Assembly: GCA_026707285.1 (NCBI GenBank)
Contig: JAPOXD010000048.1
Location: 1 to 64,000 of the forward strand
Direction: 5' to 3'
Length of the DNA stretch: 64,000 nt
From: Chloroflexota bacterium
GTDB lineage: Bacteria > Chloroflexota > UBA11872
Part shown: one piece after another, positions 2,364 to 49,887 of the stretch
Layout of the letters: the number at the start of each line of letters is the position of its first letter
How positions within the stretch are numbered: the first letter of the stretch is position 1
The notes under the pieces: generated by a model
The model's database searches: none
What the model was told of the DNA's origin: nothing
The model's input: the letters and a program-made list of their open reading frames with translations, nothing else
Made by a program: the position numbers and the translations under genes

Positions 2364-5216
2364 ATGTCAAGTCTGCTTCGCAGGGCCGTCGTGGCGCTGC
2401 TCGTCGTGGCCGCCGCGGGAGGCGTGGCCGCCTTCCTGATCATTCGGCTCGAGGTCTTTCAGGCCGAAGAGGAGGCGCCGCCGATTACCGCCAGCGTGGA
2501 GCGCCGGGACCTGGTCAGCACGCTCGCCGTGATCGGCAACGTGGACTTCGGCAACACGGTCGGGCTGGGATTCGGGCATCCGGGCACCGTCCAGGCGTTG
2601 CACGTCGAGACCGGGCAACTCGTACCCGCGGGCACCGTGCTGGCCCAGCTTGACGTAGTCGATCTCGAGCGAGCCGTGGACGACGCCGCATCTTCCCTGC
2701 AGCAAGCCGAACTGCAGCTGGCCAAGCTGCTCCGGCCCGCCGACGACGCCGATATCGAGCGCGCCGAGCTGGACGTGCAGGAGGCGCAGGCGTCGCTCGA
2801 CGACCTGCGAGCCCCAATCAGCGCATGGGACGTCGCGGCCGCCGAAGCGGCGGTGGTCTCGGCGCAGATGAACTATGACCGTGCGGTCAAGGACCTGGAG
2901 GACGTCCAGGCCGGACCTTCGGCTCTCGATCTGGTCGAAGCCGAAGGGGCCATCGCCTCGGCGCAAGCCAGCCTGGCAAGCGCCGAGCTGGGGTTGCAGG
3001 CGCTGCTGGACGAGCCGTCCGTCGCCGCGATGGCCGACGCCCAAGGCGCCATCGAGTCCGCTCGTTCGAGCCTCGCCGGCGCGAAGGACGCGCTGGACAC
3101 GCTGGTGGAAGACCCGAGCACGAGCGACGTGGCCAATGCCGAACTGAAGCTGCGAACGGCGCGCGCGGCATTCGCCGAGGCCGAGGACCAGCTGGCCACG
3201 CTGCGCGCGGGCGCCACCCAGGCCGACATCGACGAGGCCGTCGCGAGCGTGGAGGCCGCCCGCACCGCGCTCGCCGAATCCGAGGACGACTTCGCGACGC
3301 TGACGGCCGACCCGACGCCCGAGGAGCTCACGGACGCCGAGAACGCCGTCCAGAGCGCGCAGGCCGGGCTGCTGCAAGCGCAAGCGGCGCTGGACACGCT
3401 GGTGAGCGGGCCGACGGAATCGCAACTGCAGGACGCTCGCGACCAGATCGCCACGGCGCAGGCCACCCTCGACGGTGCCCGCCGAGACGCCGCCGAGGCG
3501 CCCGCCAAGCAGATTCAGATTATCGCCAGCGCCGAATCGAGCTACGAGTCGGCTCTGGCCGCGTTCATCGCGGCGCGATACGCGGCTACAGCTTCCGCGT
3601 GGGACGGTTCCTCGGGCACGGAGATTGCCGAGACTGAAGCTCGCTTTCGCGCGGCCGAGGCCGGGCTTACATCGGCCAGACAGCAACTCGCCGATGCGCG
3701 GGCCGGACCCGACTACGCGGCCCTCAACGAAGCCATCGCGGCCGGTGAGCGTGGCCTCGCCGCCGCCCAGCGTCGGCTGGCGGAGCTCCAGGAAGCACCG
3801 ACCGAAGCGGACCTTGCGGAGGCCCAAGCAAGCGTTGCCCTGGCCGAGGGAGCGCTGCGCGGTGCCGACGAAGACCAGCGCGACCTGATCGAGGGGCCAT
3901 CGGCCACCGAGGTCGCCACTCAGGCGGCAGCCGTGAGAACCGCGCGAGCGGCGCTGGCATCGGCTCGCGAGCGACTCGCCGAGTTGACCGAGGGTCCGAG
4001 CGAGGTCGAGATCGCGGTGCAGGAGGCTGCGGTGGCTGAGGCTCGACAGGCAATCGCGGACGCCGAGACGGAGTTGGACGACCTGCTTGCCGGAGCGTCG
4101 GACGACGACGTAGACGCGCAGGAGCGCGCCATCGTGGTCGCCTCGCATAGCGTCACGGCGGCCGAGGCCCGCTTGCAGGACCTGCTCGCCGACCCCGACG
4201 CCGCCGAGCTGCTGCGCGAGCAGGCGGGCCTTACATCGGCGCAACTGTCGCTCGAGGCGGCCAGGCTGCGCCTGGACGAGTTGCGTGAGGGACCCGACCC
4301 AACGGATGTCCGCCTGGCCGAACAGGCGATTCGCGCGTCCGAGTTGTCCCTCACCGACGCCACCGCGCGGTTGGACCAACTACAGGAGGGACCGTCCGCC
4401 CTGGAGGTTCTCCGGGCGGAAAACGCCGTGCGCCGAGCCGCGCTGGCCCTGGCCGACGTGCAGGCCCCGCCGGACGCGCTGGACGTTGAGCAAAGCGAAC
4501 TTGCCGTGACCGATGCCGAGCGGCGACTGGCAGCCGCCCGCGAGGACCTGGCCGACGCGCTCATCGTGGCGCCGTTTGCCGGAGTCGTGCTGGACGTGAA
4601 CGGGCAAGTGGGACTTCAGGCGCCGGCAACCGTGGTCACCCTGGCCGAGGCGGCGTCGATCCACGTGCTGGTGAACGTCGACGAATCCGACATCGGGCTC
4701 GTCAAGCTGGGCCAATTGGTAACGCTCGAGTTCGAGGCGCTTGGCGGCACGGTTTTCGCCGGCACCGTGATTCGTCGCGGTCAGCAGGGCGAAGCGTCGC
4801 AGGGGCTGGTGACGTACCCGGTCGAAATCGGCTTCACGTCGCCCGACCCTCGCCTGCTGAGCGGACTGACGGCCGACGTCTCGATCGTGCTGGCCGAGTC
4901 ACCAGGCGCCCTGGCCATCCCGCGGCAGGCCGTGCAGACGGTTGGTCCCCGGTCGTTCGTGAGCGTGCTCGGCGCGGACGGCGTGATCCAGCAACAGCCG
5001 GTCACGGTCGGGCTGCAAGATGAGCTGTTCGTCGAGGTGACCGAGGGCCTGGTCGAAGGCGAGGCCGTGGTCCTCACCGGCGCGGCCATTGCCGGATTCC
5101 AGCTGCCGCAACTGCCCGCCGGCTTCACGCCGGGTCAGTTCAGACCCGGGCAATTCGGTGGCGGCGGCGGCTTCCGCGGTCCTGGCGGCGGCGGTCCGGG
5201 CGGAGGCGGCGGCTAG
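2364..5216 (+). CDS. Periplasmic adaptor (HlyD/MFP) with giant helical repeat region
   Basis: Membrane-fusion/adaptor subunit of a MacB-type ABC exporter, 950 residues; family members are usually 350-450. Residues 8-28 form an N-terminal membrane anchor. The first half of the lipoyl/barrel-sandwich domain is near 50-98, and the second half resumes at the APFAGVV motif (about 736), followed by beta-barrel segments to about 900. Between them, residues 122-731 are Ala/Glu-rich helical sequence in 33-residue units. The tail (about 905-950) is Gly-rich with GQF repeats. The stop overlaps the GTG of the ATPase gene, so the three-gene operon is translationally coupled. The function as adaptor follows from family and context; the substrate is unknown. 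No outer-membrane channel gene is nearby. Confidence 0.88.
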   Translation: MSSLLRRAVVALLVVAAAGGVAAFLIIRLEVFQAEEEAPPITASVERRDLVSTLAVIGNVDFGNTVGLGFGHPGTVQALHVETGQLVPAGTVLAQLDVVDLERAVDDAASSLQQAELQLAKLLRPADDADIERAELDVQEAQASLDDLRAPISAWDVAAAEAAVVSAQMNYDRAVKDLEDVQAGPSALDLVEAEGAIASAQASLASAELGLQALLDEPSVAAMADAQGAIESARSSLAGAKDALDTLVEDPSTSDVANAELKLRTARAAFAEAEDQLATLRAGATQADIDEAVASVEAARTALAESEDDFATLTADPTPEELTDAENAVQSAQAGLLQAQAALDTLVSGPTESQLQDARDQIATAQATLDGARRDAAEAPAKQIQIIASAESSYESALAAFIAARYAATASAWDGSSGTEIAETEARFRAAEAGLTSARQQLADARAGPDYAALNEAIAAGERGLAAAQRRLAELQEAPTEADLAEAQASVALAEGALRGADEDQRDLIEGPSATEVATQAAAVRTARAALASARERLAELTEGPSEVEIAVQEAAVAEARQAIADAETELDDLLAGASDDDVDAQERAIVVASHSVTAAEARLQDLLADPDAAELLREQAGLTSAQLSLEAARLRLDELREGPDPTDVRLAEQAIRASELSLTDATARLDQLQEGPSALEVLRAENAVRRAALALADVQAPPDALDVEQSELAVTDAERRLAAAREDLADALIVAPFAGVVLDVNGQVGLQAPATVVTLAEAASIHVLVNVDESDIGLVKLGQLVTLEFEALGGTVFAGTVIRRGQQGEASQGLVTYPVEIGFTSPDPRLLSGLTADVSIVLAESPGALAIPRQAVQTVGPRSFVSVLGADGVIQQQPVTVGLQDELFVEVTEGLVEGEAVVLTGAAIAGFQLPQLPAGFTPGQFRPGQFGGGGGFRGPGGGGPGGGGG
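2727..4556 (+). repeat. In-gene array of 33-residue (99-bp) repeats
   Basis: In the adaptor protein, units begin with a hydrophobic-xx-G/D-P/A-S/T pattern (e.g. VQAGPS, LLDEPS, LTADPT, LTEGPS). They start at residues 148, 181, 214, 247, 280, 313 and 346, exactly 33 apart. A 66-residue irregular segment (379-444) and a 30-residue unit follow. Units then start at 475, 508, 541, 574, 607, 640 and 673. The outermost units on each side (122-147 and 673-698) are 26 residues. The layout is therefore nearly mirror-symmetric. Confidence 0.85.
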
Positions 5217-5947
5217 TGGAAAGCGGCTCCCAGGAGAACGGCAATGCGACGCCGGTCGTGCGCGTGCAAGACCTCGTCAAGACCTATCACATGGGCTTGA
5301 TCGACGTGCACGCCCTGCGCGGCGTCTCGTTCGACATCGGCAAAGGCGAGATAGTCGCCATCATGGGGCACTCGGGCTCGGGCAAGTCGACGTTGCTCAA
5401 TCTGCTGGGGTGCCTGGATGCGCCCACGGCCGGCAGCTACTTCCTCGACGGCGAGCTGGTCGGCGACCTCTCCGACGACGCGCTGGCCGCCATTCGCAAT
5501 CGCAAGATCGGGTTCGTCTTCCAATCGTTCAACCTGTTGGCGCGGATGTCGGCGCTGGAGCAGGTTGAGATGCCGTTGCTCTACGCCCGCGACCGCCAGC
5601 GGCGGCAACGCGCGGAAGAGGCCTTGGCCGTGGTCGGGTTGGAGGACCGCATGCACCACAAGCCGTCGGAGCTGTCCGGCGGGCAGCAGCAGCGCGTGGC
5701 GATTGCGCGCGCCCTGGTGGGCAATCCCAGCATGGTGCTGGCCGATGAGCCGACCGGAAACCTCGACACGGCCACGGCCAACGAGATCATGGAGCTGCTC
5801 GTCCTCCTGAACGAGGAACGCCGCATCACCACGCTGATCGTGACGCACGAGGCCGACGTGGCGGCGCGCACGCAGCGCGTGATTCGCATGGTGGACGGGG
5901 CGGTCGCCGCCGACGACCTCACCGCTCGCGCGGAGAGCGGCGTATGA
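5216..5947 (+). CDS. MacB/LolD-type ABC transporter ATPase
   Basis: ATP-hydrolysing subunit of the export system, 243 residues, acting on the cytoplasmic face. Visible motifs are Walker A GHSGSGKST, Q-loop VFQSFNLL, signature LSGGQQQRVAIARAL, Walker B VLADEPTG and the H-loop His in VTHE. The GTG start at 5216 shares its first base with the TAG stop of the adaptor gene. The stop overlaps the permease ATG in an ATGA junction. Length and motifs match the stand-alone ATPases that pair with FtsX-type permeases in macrolide, lipoprotein or peptide export. The specific cargo cannot be read from sequence. Confidence 0.93.
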   Translation: MESGSQENGNATPVVRVQDLVKTYHMGLIDVHALRGVSFDIGKGEIVAIMGHSGSGKSTLLNLLGCLDAPTAGSYFLDGELVGDLSDDALAAIRNRKIGFVFQSFNLLARMSALEQVEMPLLYARDRQRRQRAEEALAVVGLEDRMHHKPSELSGGQQQRVAIARALVGNPSMVLADEPTGNLDTATANEIMELLVLLNEERRITTLIVTHEADVAARTQRVIRMVDGAVAADDLTARAESGV

Positions 5948-7194
5948 GTCTCGCGGACGGCGTGCGACTGGCGCTGCGGGCGCTGGCCGCCAACAAGCTG
6001 CGCACCAGCCTGACGGTGCTGGGCATGGTGATCGGCGTGGCGGCGGTGATCGCGCTGATGTCGCTGGGCGCCGGCGCGCAGGCGTCGATCGAGGCGAACA
6101 TCCGCGGCACCGGCTCCAACCTGCTCTTCATCAGCCCCGGCGTGCAGTCGGCGACCGGCGGCCGGTTCGTGGACGTGAGCGCCACGTCGCCGACGCTGAC
6201 CCTCGCGGACGCCGAGGCCATTCGCGACGCGGCCATTCCGGGCATCGTGGACATCGCCCCCACGCGCAACACGAACGCATCGCTGGTGGCGGGCGGCAAC
6301 GCGTTCTCGACCCAGATCATCGGCGTGACGCCAAGCTATGCCGAGGTGCGCACCTTCCAGCCGCAGGCCGGTCGCTTCATCACCGACGACGACCTACGTC
6401 GACGCGCCCGCGTGATCGCCTTGGGGCAAACGATTGCCACCGAGCTATTCCCGGGCCAGAACCCCATCGGCGCCACGCTGCGCCTCAACAACCAGACGTT
6501 CACCGTAATCGCCGTGATGGAAGAGTCGGGTCAAGCGACGTTCCAGAGCCGCGACAACCAGGCGCTGGTGCCGTTGACCACGCTTCAGACGCGCATCAGC
6601 CCATCGCGCACGCTGGCGGGCGACGACATCGTCTCGGAGATCAGCGTCACGCTGGCCGACGAGGACGAGGCGACGATCGAGGCGGTCACCAACGAGGTCA
6701 GCGCGCTGCTGCGGCTGCGGCACGACGTGACCGAAGACGACTTCACCATCCGCACGCAACAGGACATCATCGAAGCGCTGGGCGAGGTCACCGGCACGCT
6801 GACGCTGTTCCTGGGCGCGATCGCCGGCATCTCGCTGCTGGTCGGCGGCATCGGGATCATGAACATCATGCTGGTCTCCGTGACCGAGCGAACGCGCGAG
6901 ATCGGCATCCGCAAGGCCATCGGCGCGCGCCGCCGGGACATCCTGGTGCAGTTCCTGATCGAGGCCGTGCTGGTGAGCTTGGGCGGCGGGATCGCGGGCG
7001 CGGTCATCGGCGGCCTGCTGGCGACGTACATGGGCGGTGTGAGCTTCGGCGGCCGCTCGCTCGAAGGCGCCCTCACGCCCGAGCCGGTGATTTTGGCGCT
7101 GGCGGTATCGGTGGCCATCGGCCTGGTGTTCGGCATCTACCCCGCCAACCGCGCGGCAAGGCTGCGGCCCATCGAGGCGCTGCGGTACGAGTAG
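5944..7194 (+). CDS. MacB-like ABC transporter permease (FtsX domain)
   Basis: Permease subunit, 416 residues. One transmembrane helix near residues 19-45 is followed by a large extracytoplasmic MacB-type domain (about 50-285). Three C-terminal helices make up the FtsX domain, with the conserved stretch TERTREIGIRKAIGARRRDI and the closing RPIEALRYE. It starts four bases inside the ATPase gene (ATGA) and ends the adaptor-ATPase-permease operon. It acts as a mechanotransmission-type exporter by family; substrate unknown. Confidence 0.93.
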   Translation: MSLADGVRLALRALAANKLRTSLTVLGMVIGVAAVIALMSLGAGAQASIEANIRGTGSNLLFISPGVQSATGGRFVDVSATSPTLTLADAEAIRDAAIPGIVDIAPTRNTNASLVAGGNAFSTQIIGVTPSYAEVRTFQPQAGRFITDDDLRRRARVIALGQTIATELFPGQNPIGATLRLNNQTFTVIAVMEESGQATFQSRDNQALVPLTTLQTRISPSRTLAGDDIVSEISVTLADEDEATIEAVTNEVSALLRLRHDVTEDDFTIRTQQDIIEALGEVTGTLTLFLGAIAGISLLVGGIGIMNIMLVSVTERTREIGIRKAIGARRRDILVQFLIEAVLVSLGGGIAGAVIGGLLATYMGGVSFGGRSLEGALTPEPVILALAVSVAIGLVFGIYPANRAARLRPIEALRYE

Positions 7195-7212
7195 GCCGCG
7201 CTCGGCTTGCTC

Positions 7213-7335
7213 GGGAACCTCTGAATAAAGCAAAGACCATGGCATGCACGGACCCCAATCCGTTCGATTACCCCTTCGACAAGCTCAGGGCGAACGGATT
7301 GGGGTCTAGCCCACGGCCTATTTCAGAGCTTTCCT
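7213..7335. mobile_element. MITE-like repeat A, copy 2 (best preserved)
   Basis: About 123 bp with imperfect terminal inverted repeats. The left end is GGGAACCTCTGAATAAAGC (7213-7231); the right end, read on the opposite strand, is AGGAAAGCTCTGAAATAGGC (7316-7335). A perfect 15-bp inverted repeat lies inside (7252-7266 with 7291-7305), centred on CCCTTCGACAAGCTCAGGG. There is no open reading frame. The structure fits a non-autonomous miniature element, but no target-site duplication is evident. Confidence 0.5.
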
Positions 7336-7349
7336 AGGGTCCGACCGGA

Positions 7350-7378
7350 CTGGATTCCGGCTTCCGCCGGAATGACGG
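7350..7378. repeat. REP-like repeat B, reverse copy
   Basis: Reads CTGGATTCCGG...CCGGAATGACGG, the reverse complement of the copies at 22387 and 50852 apart from a few loop changes. The 8-bp arms form a palindrome. Confidence 0.7.
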
Positions 7379-7435
7379 ACGCAAATTGGCCCACGACCGC
7401 TTGGGTCGTCCTATCTCTGTTCGGTTTTTGTTTGG

Positions 7436-7441
7436 TATAGT
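7436..7441 (+). promoter_or_regulatory. Candidate -10 box of the imuA-imuB-dnaE2 operon
   Basis: TATAGT follows a T-rich stretch (7421-7433) just before the imuA reading frame. No convincing -35 box or GAAC-N4-GTTC-type SOS box was found around it. The assignment rests only on the -10 match and position. Confidence 0.25.
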
Positions 7442-7469
7442 GGCGTCCCGTCCTACCTAGGGCTCTCGA

Positions 7470-40014: not shown

Positions 40015-40087
40015 GGGCGATTAGCTCAGCTGGGAGAGCGCTACGTTTACACCGTAGAAGTCGCAGGTTCGAGTCCTGCATCGCCCA
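40015..40087 (+). tRNA. tRNA-Val (UAC anticodon)
   Basis: Acceptor GGGCGAT (40015-40021) pairs with ATCGCCC (40080-40086), with discriminator A at 40087. The D loop AGCTCAGCTGGGAGAGC is normal. The anticodon loop TTTACAC is held by CTACG/CGTAG. The T loop is GGTTCGAGTCC. Genomic bases after the discriminator are CCG, so the final CCA is not fully encoded. Confidence 0.95.
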
Positions 40088-40630
40088 CCGAGATGCGGTT
40101 GGGGCCGACGGGAGGCGAAACCTCGCCGGCTCCCGAGTGGCGCGACGGTCACTGCCCCCACGAGGGCGGAATGGGCATCGACTCGAGTCGGCCCACCGGT
40201 CCGGCGGCGACGGCAGGGCGTTGCTTCAGCACAGAGGTCGAGGATCGCGAGCGGACGACACACGGGCGCGGTGGGCTTGGAAACTTGGCGCATCCAGCCA
40301 TTTCTGCTGACGAGCGATCCGAAGGCCACCCTGTTGGTCGGCGTGGAGCGAACCGCCGGCCAACTCGCCAGCAAGCTGACGAAGCCGTGGTCACTGCCGT
40401 GCACCTGGGTGGGACAATAGGCGGCGAGGCGGTCAGCACGAAGCACGAAAACGGGGGCTGGTGGAGCTGTGTGGAAGGGTCCGACGAGGGCTCTCAAGAA
40501 TCTCGGATATGCTCGCGAGCCCCGATGCCGGGAACGCGGAGCCAGGGGCGGGCGGTGGGAGCGCCTCGGGGGCAGCGATGACCCGTCGTGACGCGTGTGC
40601 GGCGTCTCCCCGAGCCGGTAGGCGGCCCGT
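40088..40630. other. Gene-poor spacer after tRNA-Val
   Basis: About 540 bp with no supported gene. Open frames here have no signal, no motif and unlike-protein composition. The minus-strand frame that enters the tRNA is the well-known antisense artefact (CRTRTCDFYGVNVAL). Confidence 0.6.
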
Positions 40631-43150
40631 TTGACGGCACGTATTGGCGGAAGCCGGTGGCATTGGGCTGCGGTCGTCGTGGCCGGAATACTCGTCCTGC
40701 TGGGTCTGGCGGTCTGGTTGGTCTTGCGAACGGCCGCCCCGCCTGTGTCGAGCACAGACGCTTCGCCCGACGTCACGCCGGTCGCCTCGCCGGTCGCGAC
40801 GAGGGACGTCTCGCAGATTGAGCGCGGCGCGACGGTCTATGCGACGACCTGCGCGGTCTGTCACGGCGCCAGCCTCGACGGCGGCGCTGGGCCGAAACTG
40901 ACCGACCCCGGGCTGCACAACCGTTTCGCCACGGCGCTGGACCTGTATCAATACGTGAAAACCTCAATGCCGCCGGGCGACGACGGCCCGGGCAGTTTGT
41001 CCGACGCCGAATACCTCGCGGTCGTCGCCTTCATGTTGGACGCGCGCGACGTGACCTATGCCGACGCCATAGCTCCGGCAACCGCGGCCGAGGTCTCGCT
41101 GGCGCCAGTTGCCGCCGCGTCACCGCCAGCGGAGACACCTGACGCACCAGCCGCTCGTGCGGCTCCGCAACTCCCAGCGCCCGCGTCCAGCGGCAACTCG
41201 CCGCCATTTGCCCCAACACTCACCGAGCCTGCGCCCGTCCTCCTCGCGCGTGAACAGCCACCGTTTGTCATGACGCTACAAACGGCCCCGTTTGCCGATA
41301 CGGACTCCGAAGACTGGCACACGGCCACGGAATTTGAGATCCGCGAGTTCCACAGCGGCATCCGCGTGTGGTCTTCACAGGTCAAATCATGGCCGCTGGA
41401 TGAAACGGTGCTGGAGCGCGGGGTCTTTGAAGGACCGCTGGCTGGACGGATGAGTCTCAATCACAAGACGGTCTACGCCATCCGCGCCCGGCATCGAGAT
41501 TCCAGCGCTGATCCCGGGAGCGAGTGGTCGGCTTGGTCGGCGCCGCGCGTCCTTCTCACCGCCCAGCAGGGCCTGCCGACTCCCAACCCAATGCGGCTGC
41601 GCGACATCCAGCACGACACGTTGCAGTGGGAGGCAGACGACGGAACGCCGGTGATCCTCCAGGACGGCAGCACCCTGCTGATCACGGGGTCGGCGAGCCC
41701 ACACCTTGAAATCGCCGGGGATGGCGGGCGTCACACCGTGCGCGATTTCAGCCGCGCCGCCCATTTCGAGAGCACCTACTTCAAGTTCGTTGCCGGCCCG
41801 GACGGGCTGGAAGTGCCGGCGTCGCGGATCTCATTCCGCGACAGCGCGGGCGTGCGACGGACGGTCTGGATGCCATTCATGAAGCTAGATCCGGAGCGAT
41901 TCTTGATCGCGGCGTCCACAGCCGAAGGCGGGTTCTACTTCGAGCCGGACGTGACCGAGCTGGGAAATGCAAGGATCGAGCCACTCCTTATCACCCGCGT
42001 CCGCTCACCTGAGGTGCCCTGGCGCGTCGCGGACGGCTTTCGCGTGGAGCTGGTGGCCGACGGGCTGGTGCTGCCGGTTCAGATTGCGCCCAACCCTCGT
42101 TCAATCGACGATCCCGCGGCGCCCGTCGCCTACATCACCGAGCTCTACGGCTCGGTGCGGGCACTCGGCGCGGACGGGGTCCACTGGCTCTACGCAGCGG
42201 ACGTGCTCGACGAGCGGCCGTCCGAGCCACCGGCACGCCTGAGCGGTCAGACGGGGACGTCCGGCGTGGCGGTTGATCCGCTGACGGGCGATGTCTTCGT
42301 ATCCACGACCTACCGTGGCGAGGGCGGCGATTTGCACAACAAGATCGTGCGATTGGAGAGCGATGACGACGGTCGAACGGCCGTGCGCGCGGTTGACGTG
42401 CTGCGCATGGACGGGGAAGACACCGGTCCGTCGCACCAGATTCACGGCCTGCTGTTCGGACACGACGGCCACCTTTACGCCGCCGTGGGAAATGGCATGC
42501 ACAAGTGGCGCGGTCTCGACGACAAGTTCTTCGGCGGCAAGCTGCTGCGCCTGAATCGTGACGGCAGCGCACCGGCCGACAATCCTCACTTTGACCCAAC
42601 CCAGCCCGATGCACCGATTTCGTACCAATGGGCCAAAGGGTTGCGCAACGACTTCGCCCTCGCCCAGCGTCCCGGCGACGAGGCGATCTACACCGCTGAG
42701 AATGGCCCAGCCATTGACCGCCTGTTGCGACTGGAAGCCGGGCGCAACTATGGGTACGCCGCGACCGACGCGAGCATCGTGCGGCAGGGCCTGTGGTTCT
42801 TTGGGCCTCCGGCGGTTACGCCGGTGGGGATTGCCTTCGCCATCGGCGGTGCATTTCCGGCGGAGCGCCAGGGCAATTTCTACGTGGGGACGCATGGGTT
42901 TAACTTCGTCGAAGGCACGGTCGATAACGGCAAGCGGATTTGGGAGTTCGAGCTCGATGCGGACGGCGACGTGGCGCGTCCGCCGTCAGTTTTCCTCACC
43001 TACGTGGGCGACGGCTTCGCCAACATTACCGGGGTCGCCTACCTCGCGGACGGCCTGTATTTCCTCGACTTCTACAACGACCATCCGCCGGAGGGTGAAC
43101 CGACAGCTCCCGGGGCCCGCCTGTGGCGCATCGTCCCCGATACCGAATAG
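40631..43150 (+). CDS. Cytochrome c / sorbosone-dehydrogenase-like fusion protein
   Basis: Predicted membrane-anchored, extracytoplasmic redox protein of 839 residues. One N-terminal helix spans about residues 12-34. A class I cytochrome c domain carries CAVCH at residues 74-78 and a probable Met ligand in MPPGDDG near 115. A Pro/Ala linker leads to a beta-rich, fibronectin-like stretch (about 200-320). The C-terminal third (about 470-839) is a glucose/sorbosone dehydrogenase-type beta-propeller (PVQIAPNPRS; GLLFGHDGHLYAAVGNG; YGYAATDA). The start is TTG at 40631 with only a weak upstream AGGCGG. The role is presumably sugar or alcohol oxidation with electron transfer to the heme. Monocistronic. 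Confidence 0.8.
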   Translation: MTARIGGSRWHWAAVVVAGILVLLGLAVWLVLRTAAPPVSSTDASPDVTPVASPVATRDVSQIERGATVYATTCAVCHGASLDGGAGPKLTDPGLHNRFATALDLYQYVKTSMPPGDDGPGSLSDAEYLAVVAFMLDARDVTYADAIAPATAAEVSLAPVAAASPPAETPDAPAARAAPQLPAPASSGNSPPFAPTLTEPAPVLLAREQPPFVMTLQTAPFADTDSEDWHTATEFEIREFHSGIRVWSSQVKSWPLDETVLERGVFEGPLAGRMSLNHKTVYAIRARHRDSSADPGSEWSAWSAPRVLLTAQQGLPTPNPMRLRDIQHDTLQWEADDGTPVILQDGSTLLITGSASPHLEIAGDGGRHTVRDFSRAAHFESTYFKFVAGPDGLEVPASRISFRDSAGVRRTVWMPFMKLDPERFLIAASTAEGGFYFEPDVTELGNARIEPLLITRVRSPEVPWRVADGFRVELVADGLVLPVQIAPNPRSIDDPAAPVAYITELYGSVRALGADGVHWLYAADVLDERPSEPPARLSGQTGTSGVAVDPLTGDVFVSTTYRGEGGDLHNKIVRLESDDDGRTAVRAVDVLRMDGEDTGPSHQIHGLLFGHDGHLYAAVGNGMHKWRGLDDKFFGGKLLRLNRDGSAPADNPHFDPTQPDAPISYQWAKGLRNDFALAQRPGDEAIYTAENGPAIDRLLRLEAGRNYGYAATDASIVRQGLWFFGPPAVTPVGIAFAIGGAFPAERQGNFYVGTHGFNFVEGTVDNGKRIWEFELDADGDVARPPSVFLTYVGDGFANITGVAYLADGLYFLDFYNDHPPEGEPTAPGARLWRIVPDTE

Positions 43151-43452
43151 GCGCCACCGTTCCTAACTCCGAATGCATCTCGTGGGCGGAAGAATTGAAG
43201 GATGACAACCGAACGGTGGCAAGCGACTTGGAGGACGACCACCGGATGCGGCCGGTGCCGCAAGCAGTCGGCTACGACGCCCATTTCCGCCCACTGCTGA
43301 ATCCGTCCCGATTTGATTGGACGGCTTAGACCGCGCCTCTTCGGCAACCGCACCCATTGCACGTCTATGGGCTGCGGGCATGCCAGCGCTTGCCGCAGCA
43401 CCAACCCTCCCACCATGCGCTGTCCGCCCGGAAGGCGCCGCGAATCTCGGCC
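43151..43452. other. Spacer with no supported gene
   Basis: Short frames only. The downstream half may be the eroded 5' end of the LRR gene remnant that follows; no start or signal peptide can be read. Confidence 0.5.
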
Positions 43453-44037
43453 CTGACCCAGCCCACGACGGGCGTGTGCGCCCACACGGCGGCGGTGCGC
43501 ACCACGATTCTATGCAAGCTGCCCGGGAGGAACACCTGCGCCCAAGTGGCGGCCGCCGACCTGCGCGGCATCACCGGCGCCCTCAATCTCTTCCGGATGC
43601 GCCGCACCGCATTGAATGCCCGGGACTTCCGCGGGCTCACCGGCCTGGACGCGCTGTGGTTGAACCACAACTCGCTTGCAACGCGGCCAGCGGACCTGTT
43701 CGACGTCCTCACAAACCTGTGCGGGTTTTACCTGGCCAATAGTCCGGGCAGCTCCTTCACCTTTACGGCGACGGTGGCGCAGACGGCGCCCACCCTGGTC
43801 AAGGTCACGGTCCGGGTCACCGCCGCCGGCTTCCCCGCCTCCGGCGTCACGCACAGCGGCATTCGGACTGGCGTGGGCACCTCGAACCAAGCGCCGACGG
43901 TCAACTCGGGCCCCGAGCTTCGAGGCCCTGCAGAGCGGTGCGAACGACGACTCCAATACCTACACCCTCACCGTCACCAACGGTACCGGCGACCGCGCCC
44001 TCACAACCACCCAGGACCTCACGGTCACTAACGTGTA
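43453..44037 (+). pseudogene. Remnant of an LRR plus cadherin-like secreted protein gene
   Basis: The first frame encodes a typical start of an LRR module: VCAHTAAVRTTIL, CAQVAAADLRGIT, then LNARDFRGLTGLDALWLNHN and LATRPADLFDVLTNLCGFYL, with the LxxLxLxxN spacing partly broken. The frame then changes near 43911. The next frame reads PSFEALQSGANDDSNTYT, followed by LTVTNGTGD and LTVTNVYETP, a cadherin/Ig-like repeat end. Both modules are common in large secreted adhesins, so this is the frameshifted and truncated remainder of one. No intact start or C-terminus. Confidence 0.6.
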
Positions 44038-44253
44038 CGAGACGCCACCGCCGAAGCGCATCCCTCCGCGCCGAAGGTGGTGTCGTCCCTGTCCGGCAGG
44101 ACGCGGGATTCGGGATGGTACGAACCCAACGATCGGGGCTCGCCGATCACTAGATAGGACGTGGAGTATCGGCCGCCGGGCGGGAACTTGCGGAACCGCG
44201 GTTTCGCCACGAGCCGCAGCAAGTCCCTGAGCGGGTTGGGGAAAGGCCGTCAT
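44028..44253 (-). pseudogene. Possible coding remnant, unrecognised
   Basis: On the minus strand a frame reads LRDLLRLVAKPRFRKFPPGG, then YLVIGEPRSLGSYHPESRVL, then DRDDTTFGAEG. Codon third positions are G/C-rich, as in the real genes here, and the residue mix is protein-like. It has no plausible start in the same frame, and an ATG just upstream (44253) is in another frame. I do not recognise the family. It overlaps the end of the LRR remnant. Confidence 0.3.
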
Positions 44254-44397
44254 GAGTCACGCATAGTTGCGCACGATGCGCATGGCTGCGGGACTTGGGG
44301 ACATGCGTCACTGTTGATCAACTAGCGGCGACTTGCCGACCACGGAATCGACGGTGCTAGTTTGGCGTGCGGCTAACGCATCCCAGCGATTGCCCAA

Positions 44398-45918
44398 TTG
44401 ACCTTATCGCCCCCAGATTTGGCCGGAGCGGTCCCGCCGACCGGCGGACGGCGTGGGCGGATATCACCACGGTCACGGGAACGGCTGCTCGCGGGGTTCT
44501 TGGTGGCGAACCTGGTGCTCACCGTGCCGTTGGCCTTCCTCGCGGCCGGCTGGAATTGGCCCTTGCCCGCCGCCTGGTTCCATCGCCTGGATCTCAACGC
44601 CGAGGGATCGGCGGCGAATCTTTATTCAGGGATCCTTTGGGGGATAGTCGCCGCGCTGGCGGCGGCGCAGCTGCTCCGACCGGTCATCGCCATGCGAGGA
44701 CCGCAATGGCTGTGGCCACTCGGCTGGCTCGGCGCCGCGCTGTTCGCCGCGCTGGTTGCGTTCGAGGAAATCGCCAGCCTCAAGAACACCTTCGCGAGAT
44801 CGGAGTGGCTCGCCGAATTGCTCGCGACGTTGAACCTGTCGGACCTGCCACTCCAAGTCCGCTGGGCCGTCGTGATCGCGCCGCTTGCCGCTCCGCTGGC
44901 GGCGGCGGCGGGTTGGGCCCTATACGCCTCGCTGCGGCACCGCCCGGCATTGGCGCTGCTCACTGTGCTGGCGCTGGCGCTCGGCGTGAGCGCGGTCTTA
45001 CACGACGGCTTCACTGACCACTATGGGTCGACGAGCCCCTGGGTGCTGTTGCTCGACGACGGCGCCGAGCACATGGCCGGCGCCATTTTGGCCGTAGTGC
45101 TCGTCGAGGCGCTCGCGGCCAGACACACGCCGGGCGCCGCCGACGGGGACCATGGTGGCCGGCGGCACGCTCGTTGGGCGGCCCTCGGGCTCCTAGCGGC
45201 CCTGCTGGGGGTGACGGTGCCCGCGCTGCTCGCGGAGTATGAGTGGGAAGACTCCGGCTGGACGCGGCCACTCTTCTACGCCGGGCCCATCTACCAACTC
45301 AAGCAGCCATTTCAGGCAAACCTCAACTGGCTGTCGCGGATTGACGTGTGGGGCCATGCCGCCGGACGGGGAGGCGCGAGCGCGACTGCGGAGATTCTGG
45401 TGCGCCTCATCCCTCACGAGGGCGGACCGGTGAGGTGGGGACAGGCCGAGGTGCACGGTCACCGCTCCAACCCAATGGTCACCGTCATTAACTTCGACCC
45501 GGTCCCCGATAGCAAAGGGAAACGCTACGACCTGGTAATCGTCAGCGAGCCGTTTCCCTACATCCACCTCGGCCTGATAGGCAGCAGCGCCAGTCCCCTT
45601 GGTGGGGTCAGCGTCAACGGGATAGAGCACGAGCGTCGGCTCGCCATGGCCATCTATTCGCGCGCCACGGGTGGTCGAGTGATCCTCGACCTGCTCACGC
45701 GTGACCCGCGGCGGTTGTTTGTGATCGGCGAGGTCGTGGCGATGCTGTTCCTGTGGGTGTTTGCCGTGGTGGCCGCGTGGCGCGGTCTATCCTGGCCCAA
45801 ACCCCGGTTCTGGCGCGGCTTTGTGTGGAGCGCGGCCCGACGAAGTGCGTTTGTCACGGTCGGGCTGCTCGTCATCGCCCTGGCCATCACGGCACTGCCA
45901 AGGATCTTCTTCGCTTAA
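44398..45918 (+). CDS. Multi-pass membrane protein of unknown function
   Basis: Protein of 506 residues, not recognised. About seven hydrophobic helices lie in residues 28-285 (first VANLVLTVPLAFLAAGW; later LLDDGAEHMAGAILAVVLVEAL). A soluble, beta-rich stretch follows (about 315-425) with AEILVRLIPHEGGPVRWGQ and VTVINFDPVPDSKGKRYDLV. Two C-terminal helices end at the last residue. The start is TTG 44398; no ATG is available until about residue 98. The soluble region may face the outside. No partner gene is adjacent. Confidence 0.7.
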   Translation: MTLSPPDLAGAVPPTGGRRGRISPRSRERLLAGFLVANLVLTVPLAFLAAGWNWPLPAAWFHRLDLNAEGSAANLYSGILWGIVAALAAAQLLRPVIAMRGPQWLWPLGWLGAALFAALVAFEEIASLKNTFARSEWLAELLATLNLSDLPLQVRWAVVIAPLAAPLAAAAGWALYASLRHRPALALLTVLALALGVSAVLHDGFTDHYGSTSPWVLLLDDGAEHMAGAILAVVLVEALAARHTPGAADGDHGGRRHARWAALGLLAALLGVTVPALLAEYEWEDSGWTRPLFYAGPIYQLKQPFQANLNWLSRIDVWGHAAGRGGASATAEILVRLIPHEGGPVRWGQAEVHGHRSNPMVTVINFDPVPDSKGKRYDLVIVSEPFPYIHLGLIGSSASPLGGVSVNGIEHERRLAMAIYSRATGGRVILDLLTRDPRRLFVIGEVVAMLFLWVFAVVAAWRGLSWPKPRFWRGFVWSAARRSAFVTVGLLVIALAITALPRIFFA

Positions 45919-46823
45919 CGCCGCCTCATTGGCCGCCAGGGCGTGATCGCACGTGAGGCCCCCGCACGGTAGACACCCTCGCCTTCCTGGATCGGATCCT
46001 GGCCTCATTCCGCACCGAAGACATCCCGTGCAGGCGGTGACGCCCGATAACAGGTCGGCCCACACTTCGCACGCTTGGCGGCTTTTCCCCGTGGCTCTAC
46101 GCCTGCAATCACTCCCGTCCCCACACCGAATTCGACGCACGCACTCCGGCTCAGCAACTCGGTGTCAACAACCTCAGTAGGAAGAACAACTCGGCCGCAG
46201 CAGCCTGTCGAGCTGACTTCGGCGGCGATCCTGCCCGGTGAATGCGAGCGTTTCGCCTTTCACGCACGGCGACAAACGGCAGCGCGGCGCCAAACGCCAG
46301 CCAGGCTGCCCATCGCACCGACATCGTCGTGTGCGCCGGGCGGTCGTGGATGAACACCGCGGCGAAAACCGCCGCTCCGAATATCAACAGTCCCGCGCCG
46401 TCGAGCAGCAAGGTTCGCGAGAGAAAGGACGCCTCGCGGAATCGGTGCACTTAGCCGTCCTTCGCACCGACGGCATCTCTCGCAGGGTGATTGACCATGC
46501 CGATCGCCATGCCTCTCGCCACGGTGAGTTGCCGTCCGGCCGCCCACTGCCCATCGGCAGCGGTGATCGCGGCGGCGTCGAGCGTCTCGTGCGAGCTGTT
46601 CGCTGTTAACAGCCTCTGTAGTCAGTACAGCTAGCTACGATCACTCGCCGAACGCTCCCCGATTGGTGCACTACCGAACTGCACGTCGGCTTCCATTGGC
46701 CCGAGAGTCGAGCAAGGGCATTCTGAGTCACGGCCTGCAACGAAGCCTCTCACCAGAAGGCCCGTAGTACAGTGCAGGCTCGCCCACCGGCATCGCGCGA
46801 CGACCCGTCGGGGCAGTGCGCAT
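45919..46823. other. Gene-poor spacer before tRNA-Phe
   Basis: About 900 bp with stop-rich frames. Apart from the weak small membrane ORF listed separately, nothing is supported. It is one of the longest empty stretches of the window. Confidence 0.55.
46151..46450 (-). CDS. Possible small membrane protein
   Basis: The 99-residue frame has two hydrophobic segments, LLLDGAGLLIFGAAVFAAVF and AAWLAFGAALPFVAV, and a basic C-terminal half. The GTG start is preceded by AAGGA at a workable distance. No family is recognised, the composition is only moderately coding-like, and it lies in a gene-poor spacer, so it may be a remnant or chance. Confidence 0.25.
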   Translation of the reverse strand: MHRFREASFLSRTLLLDGAGLLIFGAAVFAAVFIHDRPAHTTMSVRWAAWLAFGAALPFVAVRERRNARIHRAGSPPKSARQAAAAELFFLLRLLTPSC

Positions 46824-46896
46824 GGCGAGATAGCTCAGTCGGTAGAGCAGTGGACTGAAAATCCATGTGTCGCCAGTTCGATTCTGGCTCTCGCCA
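46824..46896 (+). tRNA. tRNA-Phe (GAA anticodon)
   Basis: Acceptor GGCGAGA (46824-46830) pairs with TCTCGCC (46889-46895) with one mismatch-free helix; discriminator A at 46896. The D arm is AGCTCAGTCGGTAGAGC. The anticodon stem GGACTGAAAATCC holds GAA. The T arm is CCAGTTCGATTCTGG. The bases after the discriminator are CCT, so CCA is not encoded. Confidence 0.95.
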
Positions 46897-47174
46897 CCTG
46901 GAATGCTGCGTTTCCCGTTCCGCCCGGGGCGTGTGGGGAAGGGCGGCGCCACATGGACTCAGCTAAGGCCTGCCTCCCGCCGTCGGAGACCTTGGCAACA
47001 GTGGTCAATATCCCACGCCCAGGCCTCGAATCACCCTCACCCTAGCCCTGTCCCATCAAGTGAGAGGGGACCGGACCCGATCTTCCGTCTCCACGCACGG
47101 AAGACGCAACGATCACCCTTCGCGGGCATGACACGAGCGGGTGTCCGTCGAGACGATCCTGACCGGCAGCGGCT
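46897..47174. other. Spacer with repeat-like segment
   Basis: No gene. 47033-47070 reads like the widespread CCCTCACCCTAGCCCTGTCC-type repeat with a nearby GAGAGGGGA arm, giving a weak hairpin. 47100-47150 resembles an eroded relative of repeat B. Confidence 0.35.
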
Positions 47175-47834
47175 CTAGCAGCCGCTGTAGATGGTCATGC
47201 TGGGCAGGCAGCCGAAGTTGATCTTGGTGGTCTGAATCGTGACTTCCTCCACCGGCGCCGACACCTCACCGTCCGATCCCGGACCCAGCGCCACACCGCC
47301 GATCTTGTCCAGCGTCGCCAACGAGGGCGCGTGGTTCTCCTTGACGCGTCCGAAGATGGTGTAGTTCGGCGGCAACTCGGCGTCCGTGAGGTCGCTGAGA
47401 ATGATGTAGAAGCGCGACCCATTCGAGTTTGGCGCGCCGGTGTTGGCCATGACCAGATCACCACGCCGGTAGGGCTGCTGCGGCGGCTCGATCTCGAACG
47501 TATAGCCGGGGTCGCCCGTTCCCGTGCCGGTGGCGTCGCCGGTTTCAATGAGCACGCCCGGCAGCACGCGATGCACGGTGATGCCGTCGTAGTAGCCCTC
47601 CTGGGCCAGGAACAGGAAGCTATTGACCGCCCGCGGCGCCTCTTGCGGCACCAGGTTGAAGGTCATCCGTCCAAGGCTCGTGGTGAGGACGACGCTGTAG
47701 GGCCGGAGCTCCTCTACCGTCATCTCCGGCTCGGCGGCGAACGTCGGCGGACCCTCCGGCTCCGGCTCTCCGCACGCGGCGACCGCAACTGCCGCGATCG
47801 CCACGACCAACGCAATCACGATTGCTCGCCACAT
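47175..47834 (-). CDS. Cyclophilin-type peptidyl-prolyl isomerase lipoprotein
   Basis: Predicted membrane-anchored prolyl isomerase of 219 residues, helping extracytoplasmic folding. The ATG at 47834 gives a clean signal peptide with lipobox VAAC. The cyclophilin domain begins at about residue 45: YYDGITVHRVLPGVLIETGD keeps the catalytic Arg in HRV, while the usual Gln-Gly-Gly-Asp is ETGD. GDLVMANTGAPNSNGSRFYI is the next conserved block. The protein ends unusually with two Cys (FGCLP, YSGC) that could form a disulfide. Activity is likely but the Gln change may reduce it. Confidence 0.9.
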   Translation of the reverse strand: MWRAIVIALVVAIAAVAVAACGEPEPEGPPTFAAEPEMTVEELRPYSVVLTTSLGRMTFNLVPQEAPRAVNSFLFLAQEGYYDGITVHRVLPGVLIETGDATGTGTGDPGYTFEIEPPQQPYRRGDLVMANTGAPNSNGSRFYIILSDLTDAELPPNYTIFGRVKENHAPSLATLDKIGGVALGPGSDGEVSAPVEEVTIQTTKINFGCLPSMTIYSGC

Positions 47835-47986
47835 TGCCGTTTGCTCCGCATCCATCCGCCGTTTAGCCCGCTATTCTGCCGCGTCGGCCGCCCAATCGCC
47901 ATGCAGGGCCCGCTGAGCTGACCAACGACCCGCGTGCGCTACGGTTTGGGGCCGTGCCCGGTACGCCGGCAGGCAGGGGGGAATCC

Positions 47987-48751
47987 GTGAGCGTCGACAT
48001 TGACCAATGCGTCGCCGACGTCCTGGACATCGGCCATTGCGTCTTGCCCAATCACTTCCCCAAGCCGGCGATTGACGCATTCCACGAGGGGTTCCTGCCG
48101 CTGCTGGGACGGGTGGCGGCCCGCATCCCCGAGGGCAATCGCCGCGCCAACCGCTGGGCCATCGGCCTTCCCTTCGCCCCGCCGTTTTATCAGTCCGCAT
48201 TCTTCGGCGACGACACGGTCAATGAAATCGTGGGGCGCATCCTGGGCGAAAGCATGTTCATTGCCTACTACGGCACCGACACGCCGGTCGCGGGATCCGA
48301 AGACCAGCAGGTGCACTCGGACATCCGCCCGCTGTTTCCGGAGCAGCCGGACCTGCGCTATCCGCCACCGACGCTCTCGGTGCGGTTCACGAGCGTGGAC
48401 ATGACCCTCGACAACGGACCCTACAGCACATCCGAACGCACGCAGCACCTCACGCGAGACGACGCCCAGGCAAAGCTCGCCGCGGGCGAGATCGAGCTCG
48501 CGCCGCTGCTCCTCCGCGCCGGCGACGTGCTGATCAGCGATGCCCGCACGCTGCACCGCGGCACGGCCAATCGAACCGATGCGCCGCGTCCCTTCGCGGT
48601 GATCGTCTACAACCGCGACTGGTACCACCTGGAAGGCGAGTTGCGGCTGGAGGCCAACGAGAACACGCCAATGCTGCTGGAGTCGTTCTATCGGACTCTG
48701 CCGCCGGCTGAGCAGGAACTCCTCCGACGCGTGCCGAGGACGGATGACTGA
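47987..48751 (+). CDS. Phytanoyl-CoA dioxygenase (PhyH) family protein 1
   Basis: Fe(II)/2-oxoglutarate oxygenase-like protein of 254 residues. The HxD metal motif is in QVHSDI (about residue 107), and the distal His is in TLHRGTANRTDAPR with an Arg that could bind 2-oxoglutarate. The GTG at 47987 follows a G-rich GGGGGGAA; the frame is open to 47954. Substrate unknown. It overlaps the first GrpB gene by eight bases, so the two are co-translated. Confidence 0.85.
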   Translation: MSVDIDQCVADVLDIGHCVLPNHFPKPAIDAFHEGFLPLLGRVAARIPEGNRRANRWAIGLPFAPPFYQSAFFGDDTVNEIVGRILGESMFIAYYGTDTPVAGSEDQQVHSDIRPLFPEQPDLRYPPPTLSVRFTSVDMTLDNGPYSTSERTQHLTRDDAQAKLAAGEIELAPLLLRAGDVLISDARTLHRGTANRTDAPRPFAVIVYNRDWYHLEGELRLEANENTPMLLESFYRTLPPAEQELLRRVPRTDD

Positions 48752-49325
48752 GCCGGCACGCTCCGCGTCTAGGAACGGTCGGGGGAAGCGGGTCCACATC
48801 AAAGAGGGTGTAGTCCTCAAGCCCTACGACCCGCAATGGCCGGCCATGTATGAGAAGGCGCGCGCGGAGCTTGTCGCGTGTATCAGCCAGCACATCCTGC
48901 GAATCGAACACGTCGGCAGCACGTCCATACCTGGACTGGCTGCCAAGCCAACGATTGACATTCTTGTGGGCGTGCGCGATTGGGACGATGCCAGGATCAC
49001 CATTGCGCCGCTAACCGACATCGGATGGGGATACGTTGGCGAGTACGGTATCCCGCGCCGGCACTATTTTCGCCGGGGCGCCGTGAGCGGTCGCCGCACA
49101 CACCACCTGCACATGCTCGAAGTGACGCACCCGGAGTGGGAGGCCATGCTGTCGTTTCGAGACTACCTCCGCGGCCATCCGAAAGCCTCGGCCGATTACG
49201 AACGCCTGAAATACGACCTCGCGCGCAGAAACCTCGACGGGCCGGGCTACCAGGCGGCGAAGGCGCCGTTCATCCAGGGAATCCTCGAGCGGGCGCGCGG
49301 CACTTGCCCCACAACGGATGGCTGA
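48744..49325 (+). CDS. GrpB family nucleotidyltransferase-like protein 1
   Basis: GrpB/UPF0157 protein of 193 residues. The nucleotidyltransferase-type core keeps EHVGSTSIPGLAAKPTIDIL (about 53-72), with the GS motif and the DxD-like acidic pair. HMLEVTHPEWEAMLSFRDYL is the second family block. Known members have poorly defined nucleotidyltransferase or coenzyme-related roles. It overlaps PhyH1 upstream and the paralogue downstream by eight bases on each side. Confidence 0.88.
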   Translation: MTEPARSASRNGRGKRVHIKEGVVLKPYDPQWPAMYEKARAELVACISQHILRIEHVGSTSIPGLAAKPTIDILVGVRDWDDARITIAPLTDIGWGYVGEYGIPRRHYFRRGAVSGRRTHHLHMLEVTHPEWEAMLSFRDYLRGHPKASADYERLKYDLARRNLDGPGYQAAKAPFIQGILERARGTCPTTDG

Positions 49326-49887
49326 GGCGAAACGCCCAATCGTTCGCGTGCCGGCGGAGACCCGTCTGGTCGTCGTCCCCTACAACCCGGAGTGGCCGGC
49401 CATGTACGACCGAGAACGCGCCGAGATCGACGCCTGCATCGGCCAGCACATCCTTTGCATCGAGCACGCGGGCGGCACCGCCATACCGGGCATGGCCGGG
49501 AAGCCGACGGTCGACATCCTGGTGGGCGTCCACGATTGGGACGAAGCCAGAGTCACTTTCGGGCCGTTGGCCGCAATTGGATGGGAGTTCCGCGGCGAGC
49601 GCGGTATGCCGCGGCGGCACCTCTTTCGTCGGCTCAATGCGCAGGGCCGCCGCACGCACCAGCTGCACATGCTCGAAGTCACGCATCCCCAATGGGAGGC
49701 GATGCTGCTCTTCCGCGACTACGTCCGCAGCCATCCGGATGCGGCAGCGGAGTACCAGCAGCTGAAGCTCGACCTCGCGCGACGGTTCCCCGACCGGCGG
49801 GGCAAATACACCGCGGGAAAAGAGGCGTTCGTGATGTACGTGCTGGCGCAGGCGCGGCGAGCGCGTGAGGACGGGCGAGACGCGTGA
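49318..49887 (+). CDS. GrpB family protein 2, tandem paralogue
   Basis: Second GrpB copy of 189 residues, clearly related to its neighbour across its length (shared HMLEVTHP, FRDY, KLDLARR). The GST motif of the first copy is GGT here (EHAGGTAIPGMAGKPTVDIL), so the Ser expected to contact the triphosphate is missing. The acidic pair in VDILVGVHDWD remains. ATG 49318 overlaps the stop of the first copy. A recent tandem duplication with divergence is the simplest reading. Confidence 0.88.
   Translation: MAEAKRPIVRVPAETRLVVVPYNPEWPAMYDRERAEIDACIGQHILCIEHAGGTAIPGMAGKPTVDILVGVHDWDEARVTFGPLAAIGWEFRGERGMPRRHLFRRLNAQGRRTHQLHMLEVTHPQWEAMLLFRDYVRSHPDAAAEYQQLKLDLARRFPDRRGKYTAGKEAFVMYVLAQARRAREDGRDA

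Follow-up and report, generated by a model that had tools for sequence, protein, structure and literature searches.

Gene content and reading frames at the locus

The window, meaning the whole 64,000-nucleotide stretch of DNA analysed here (G000:C56:1-64000), comes from a 3.2-Mb genome that is 97% complete (G000). On its forward strand, tRNA-Val (TAC; 40015-40089) and tRNA-Phe (GAA; 46824-46898), both identified by ARAGORN, form the left and right borders of a variable interval. The forward-strand ORF at 40631-43150 encodes cytochrome c and glucose/sorbosone dehydrogenase domains (Pfam GSDH 2.5e-24, Cytochrome_CBB3 7.8e-11) and represents separate cargo, not part of the adhesin. A second forward-strand ORF at 44398-45918 is intact cargo that reads as a membrane protein by eye; it has DNA matches in several relatives and no Pfam or NCBIfam match at E 0.01. 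No intact gene was seen between these two ORFs. A protein neighbouring the locus is one that we take to be SPFH-type. Within the sister genus, a homolog of the dehydrogenase ORF lies just after tRNA-Arg in G009, G011 and G015.

The stretch between the two ORFs contains LRR-type sequence in the frame of 43153+3n, which is open from 43331 to 44028 (233 codons). From about 43909 a cadherin-like end follows in another frame, 43151+3n; an fn3-like stretch containing a TAG at 44155 then returns to the frame of 43153+3n. Pfam searches of the raw frames yielded LRR_8 below the cut-off (E 0.049) and no match in the cadherin-like frame, so relatives were needed for recognition. At the protein level, matches to a single open frame in G000 reached E 1.2e-20 (LRR part, C53) and 1.1e-17. 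Whole-genome DNA searches matched the LRR start to own C53 at E 5.6e-37 and to the two G002 copies at E 4.8e-39; the cadherin piece reached E 1.4e-21. The original prediction of leucine-rich and cadherin-like modules in different frames is therefore confirmed by matches to intact relatives far above chance.

We consider it very likely that 43423-44238 is a pseudogene of a multidomain surface protein, shortened by internal deletions and drifting neutrally. It is a dead gene of an ordinary kind, about one fifth as long as the original gene, and larger than first described: the modules do lie at 43453-44037 as predicted, but the true span extends over about 43423-44170, perhaps to 44238. A distant-mode search of the plasmid collection with 43151-44400 gave no match, and a pattern search of the genome contigs with the alignment of the three intact proteins gave 88 matches, none of them confirmed. 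Promoter-like and terminator-like sites at the remnant numbered zero against 0.3 and 0.8 expected, which is uninformative.

Intact relatives and the architecture of the remnant

Three longer open relatives agree with the original view of the locus as what is left, after decay, of a large LRR/cadherin protein that was probably secreted. The G002:C14 copy (1307 codons) lies between the same tRNA-Val and tRNA-Phe as the remnant, and a second open copy in the same genome, G002:C36, has 1225 codons. The search for full-length relatives within G000, proposed with the prediction, found an open frame of more than 1000 codons in C53, cut by the contig end. The C-terminus of this protein very probably lies at the start of C57, given the 34-bp exact overlap of the contig ends and the fn3 domain on the C57 side. 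The organism has thus not lost such a protein, as had been supposed, since an open copy remains, though split over two contigs.

Domain analysis revealed LRR_8 (Pfam E 1.2e-37, 3.3e-26 and 3.8e-32), a PKD model and three to five Cadherin stretches (E 1.6e-37, 5.4e-23 and 1.4e-24) above cut-off in each of the three intact proteins. An N-terminal fn3 domain exceeds the Pfam cut-off in one of the three, and Calx-beta was detected in the C14 copy (E 1.8e-7), the one tested for it. The C-terminal fn3 domain is clear in the own paralog (E 5.8e-11), whereas C14 (0.0055) and C36 (0.00038) fall short of the cut-off. Judged from sequence, the intact order is a signal peptide (by eye), a fibronectin-like domain, Calx-beta, LRR, PKD, three to five cadherin repeats and a C-terminal fn3 domain, and these domains suggest an adhesive function. 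LRR-based type III effector families and PKD/cadherin-based M36 peptidases were also considered for the intact G002 protein and rejected as generic repeat similarity, their NCBIfam matches falling far below the cut-offs (47.8 against 450 bits; 119.6 against 1500).

An LRR query at E <= 0.001 found matches in 6 of 41 genomes (G000, G002, G015, G017, G034 and G037); the N-terminal domain, a better mark of the family, was found in 2 of the 41 (G000 and G002). Cadherin and fn3 genes are reported to be enriched in sponge MAGs and to be among the laterally transferred genes of sponge-associated bacteria, with fn3 abundant in Chloroflexota (PMC8163846). The cadherin, fibronectin-III and LRR proteins described there share their kinds of domain with the present family, one member of which is here a pseudogene, in a genome of presumed sponge origin. 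A search for literature joining Chloroflexota, sponge, leucine-rich repeat and cadherin found none, which is no proof of absence in print.

Five pieces and a probable sixth, all on the forward strand, make up the remnant, and they are colinear with the G002:C14 frame at 73-87% DNA identity, as well as with own C53. Piece 1 (43423-43470) holds the beginning of the N-terminal fibronectin-like domain (86% over 49 bp to G002:C14), and piece 2 (43471-43680) the LRR cap and first LRR (74-77% DNA identity to C53, G002:C14 and G002:C36). Piece 3 (43681-43812) comprises the last LRR and the start of the next domain, the inner LRRs being gone, and piece 4 (43813-43908) the end of that post-LRR domain and the first residues of the PKD domain. 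Piece 5 (43909-44050), in the other frame, is the end of one cadherin repeat, with 70-78% DNA identity to the cadherin units of C53, C14 and C36 and 65-74% protein identity to those of C14. The probable piece 6 (44062-44238) is the C-terminal fn3 domain (E 0.031, below cut-off) and contains the in-frame TAG. Its best relative outside the window (E 0.001) consists of the repeated units of a G005 frame, a long frame at 421-2748 of L097 (G005:C11) whose repeated units look fn3-like by eye.

Relative to G002:C14, the remnant lacks 639, 291, 144 and 21 bp, all multiples of three. The 639-bp loss removed the rest of the fibronectin-like domain together with the Calx-beta domain, and the 291-bp loss removed the inner LRRs; the latter deletion falls between homologous units, which explains why register was kept. 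The 5' end of the gene has no match in the remnant: the first matching base of C14 is at oriented position 7053, and the C14 frame opens at 6886. The frameshift originally placed near 43911 is a genuine change of frame, but not a one-base slip. It is the junction (43905-43916) left by an out-of-frame deletion that, measured against C53 and C36, took out at least about 430 bases between a point in the PKD domain and one in a cadherin unit; the exact length of the deletion varies with the cadherin unit taken as joined. The remnant thus carries three kinds of disabling lesion: a missing 5' end, an out-of-frame junction and a stop codon in the probable last domain.

These lesions bear on whether a live gene has been broken on paper only, by an assembly or sequencing error at 43905-43920. 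Repeat-rich genes do break assemblies, as the own paralog split over C53 and C57 illustrates, but a single error would not explain the lost 5' end, the other deletions, the TAG or the substitution pattern. Nor can repeat collapse give a divergence of about 24% from all three intact copies without a third-position excess, and we regard such an error as highly improbable.

The four in-frame deletions before 43905 might point to a time when a shortened protein was produced, but deletions between repeats in coding sequence usually preserve the frame in any case. It is likewise very unlikely that the 233-codon frame is translated as a new, trimmed LRR protein. The frame is open and was kept by the first four deletions, yet no stretch matches the 5' end of the family, TTG and GTG are the only starts in frame before 43597, third positions show no excess of change, and sequence of this G+C often contains long open frames.

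On the pseudogene reading that we favour, the gene sat in the variable tRNA-Val/tRNA-Phe interval and lost its 5' end, and internal deletions, in an order that we infer, shortened it. Several of these deletions may have occurred between short or long direct repeats of the gene's own coding sequence; one broke the frame, and the leftover sequence has drifted neutrally. Counted by eye and without chance control, 8-10 bases are common to the two sides of the junction at 43803-43812, about 6 at the 21-bp gap and 5-6 at the frame-breaking junction, and a repeat copy appears to be left at four of five junctions. The sides of the junction at 43470 share almost no bases, so a single mechanism does not fit all the deletions.

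Repeat-mediated deletions are reported in Haloquadratum walsbyi, also in a repetitive surface protein, with 16 cases involving repeats of 10-19 bp (PMC3119063). The likeness lies in deletion between short direct repeats. Unlike those cases, the repeats here are 5-10 bp by eye or whole LRR units, with almost none at one junction, and the comparison is between diverged copies rather than strains. The remnant provides a legible example of erosion in surface proteins built from repeats.

Codon constraint and age of the remnant

The codon-position test covered 429 columns, with 53 private changes in the remnant and 60 in the three intact copies. The remnant differs from these copies at 23.5-25.4% of sites (26-30% of third positions), and the intact copies differ among themselves by 15.6-17.6%. 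Private changes at codon positions 1/2/3 number 24/17/12 in the remnant against 17/12/31 in the intact copies together (C14 3/2/10; C36 8/8/8; C53 6/2/13). When third positions are set against first plus second positions, the remnant departs from the pooled intact copies in the direction of lost constraint (Fisher p = 0.0019), in a small sample in which C36 is itself even, so that the contrast comes from C14 and C53. The remnant shows no departure from an even spread (p = 0.13), whereas the intact copies together do (p = 0.008).

Per column scored, private rates at positions 1, 2 and 3 are 0.21, 0.14 and 0.13 in the remnant, 0.03, 0.02 and 0.11 in C14, and 0.06, 0.02 and 0.14 in C53. Third positions of the remnant have therefore changed no faster than those of the intact copies, while its first and second positions have changed several times faster than those of C14 and C53. 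The pattern looks as if constraint had been absent for much of the remnant's separate history. An early loss of constraint on the remnant branch would give such rates, which argues against the recent loss that was first proposed.

The same claim of recency finds no support in the flanking genes either, which have diverged less than the remnant: between G000 and G002, four of them differ at 9-19% of third positions, compared with 27% for the remnant and C14. We do not regard the loss as recent. The remnant and C14 may have separated ahead of the species split, or may be separate acquisitions. Informative sites give no clear closest intact copy (C53 11, C14 7, C36 7; C53 best in 74% of 1000 resamplings), so the G002 copy is not a proven orthologue of the remnant.

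Given 23.5% divergence, we rejected the idea that the remnant is a recent partial duplicate of the own paralog. That one genome holds both this partial copy and a longer paralog that is open also recalls a silent donor cassette, retained so that gene conversion can vary the expressed copy, as happens in antigenic variation. We give this reading very little credence, as a search to E 1 turned up no further piece of this kind in the genome, the remnant and the paralog are about 75% identical, and codon constraint is absent from the remnant.

Variable content between the tRNA genes and a probable second insertion

The pseudogene marks a tRNA-Val/tRNA-Phe interval whose content varies among congeners. 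In three of the six genomes of the genus (G001, G003 and G004), tRNA-Val and tRNA-Phe lie 35 bp apart, which represents the empty site; in the others, tRNA-Val is separated from the GAA tRNA-Phe by 6.7 kb (G000), 9.1 kb (G002) and 5.8 kb (G005). The coordinates used were 40015-46898 of the window, 3343-5544 of L079 and 3487-9378 of L080 (G005:C11). In G000 the interval holds the dehydrogenase, the remnant and the membrane protein; its G002 counterpart carries the open surface protein together with ORFs that look membrane-type by eye. In G005 it holds HerA-like, NurA-like (just below cut-off), methyltransferase-like and NUDIX genes. At 3657-7461 and 8316-9032 of L080, these form a possible defence module, the HerA-like gene also matching mad8 (E 1.6e-13). 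A second tRNA-Phe occurs 2.0 kb further on in G003, and G005 has an additional tRNA-Phe-like gene with anticodon AAA.

At 43236-43351 (unstranded), directly left of the remnant and now 3.1 kb from tRNA-Val, lies a stretch that matches the sequence directly after tRNA-Val in G002 (76% over 121 bp; local score 113, best of 200 shuffles 38). We read it as the old left end of the interval. By this match, the remnant and the G002 gene occupy the same interval, and the dehydrogenase ORF is a later arrival or the product of a rearrangement.

The interval is also bounded by a degenerate 19-bp direct repeat, identical at 15 of 19 positions including all of the last 10, the left copy of which (40072-40090, forward strand) consists of the tRNA-Val 3' end and one further base. 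The right junction (46764-46788, forward strand) is identical in G000, G002 and G005 (25 of 25 bases), its final 9 bases match the 3' end of tRNA-Val exactly, and with up to 3 mismatches it occurs nowhere else in the six genomes. A junction common to three genomes may reflect one old inherited insertion with turnover since. A further repeat, one that would mark the dehydrogenase ORF as a second tandem element, is no more than suggested: 36 bases at and after the tRNA-Val end, partly tRNA itself, resemble those of G002 (score 41, 0 of 200 shuffles), and the two arms in the window match each other weakly (score 29, 5 of 200 shuffles).

The marks of a genomic island at a tRNA gene, as given for Islander (PMC4383910), are an intact tRNA at one end and a displaced copy of its 3' end at the other. 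The present interval resembles such islands in its insert-free junction in relatives and in its different cargo in each genome. It differs in that only 9 bases of the displaced fragment are identical to the tRNA, or 15 of 19 in the wider repeat, and in that no tyrosine integrase (PF00589) was found in the interval of the four genomes searched (G000, G002, G005 and G003; 6-8 elsewhere per genome). A literature search on tRNA genomic islands or pseudogenes in sponge Chloroflexota gave, among the matches listed, none on the subject by title.

The own open copy in C53/C57 lies between two direct 85-bp copies that are 88% identical, at 3435-3518 of L009 (G000:C53) and 612-696 of L047 (G000:C57). 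The C57 copy forms the 3' end of a dehydrogenase-like gene (GSDH domain, E 2.4e-12). Each of five congeners has one copy of the 85-bp sequence, and none of the five has an adhesin match at E <= 0.001 beside it, in stretches of 4.5-7.5 kb. To the left of the repeat, 200 bases run through into it in G005 and G001, at about 69% identity, and partly in G002, but G003 and G004 lack this continuity; an insertion here is therefore indicated mainly by two genomes. This probable second adhesin insertion and the changeable setting of the remnant are more interesting than the decay itself.

Both surface-protein loci of G000 are variable among congeners and both lie at the 3' ends of genes. These features form the basis for an idea that we consider unlikely: the surface-protein genes of the genus might move as short integrase-free cassettes into gene 3' ends, leaving a copy of the target 3' end at the far border, and the pseudogene would then be a cassette that died in place. 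The C53/C57 join on which this draws is itself inferred, and no recombinase is tied to the loci. No strong flanking repeat was found at C36 (best E 0.006 over 40 bp), and no arm common to all adhesin loci was seen within the stretches compared. Such cassettes, if real, would help to explain the gain and loss of surface proteins among related, probably sponge-associated Chloroflexota.

Flank matches outside genes comprise the stretch after tRNA-Val, common to G002 and the window, and an 84-bp upstream match between C14 and C36. Around the interval, window 34398-40117 matches G002:C14 at 94% identity, and 46654-46923 and 47119-49138 match it at 87% and 91%. A dispersed repeat of about 100 bp, at about 46965-47133 of the window, has many matches in the six genomes, more in G002 than in any other genome among the matches listed. 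Two neighbouring ORFs at 48744-49887 resemble each other, and each of them matches one and the same stretch of G002:C14, the match of the second being at 74%.
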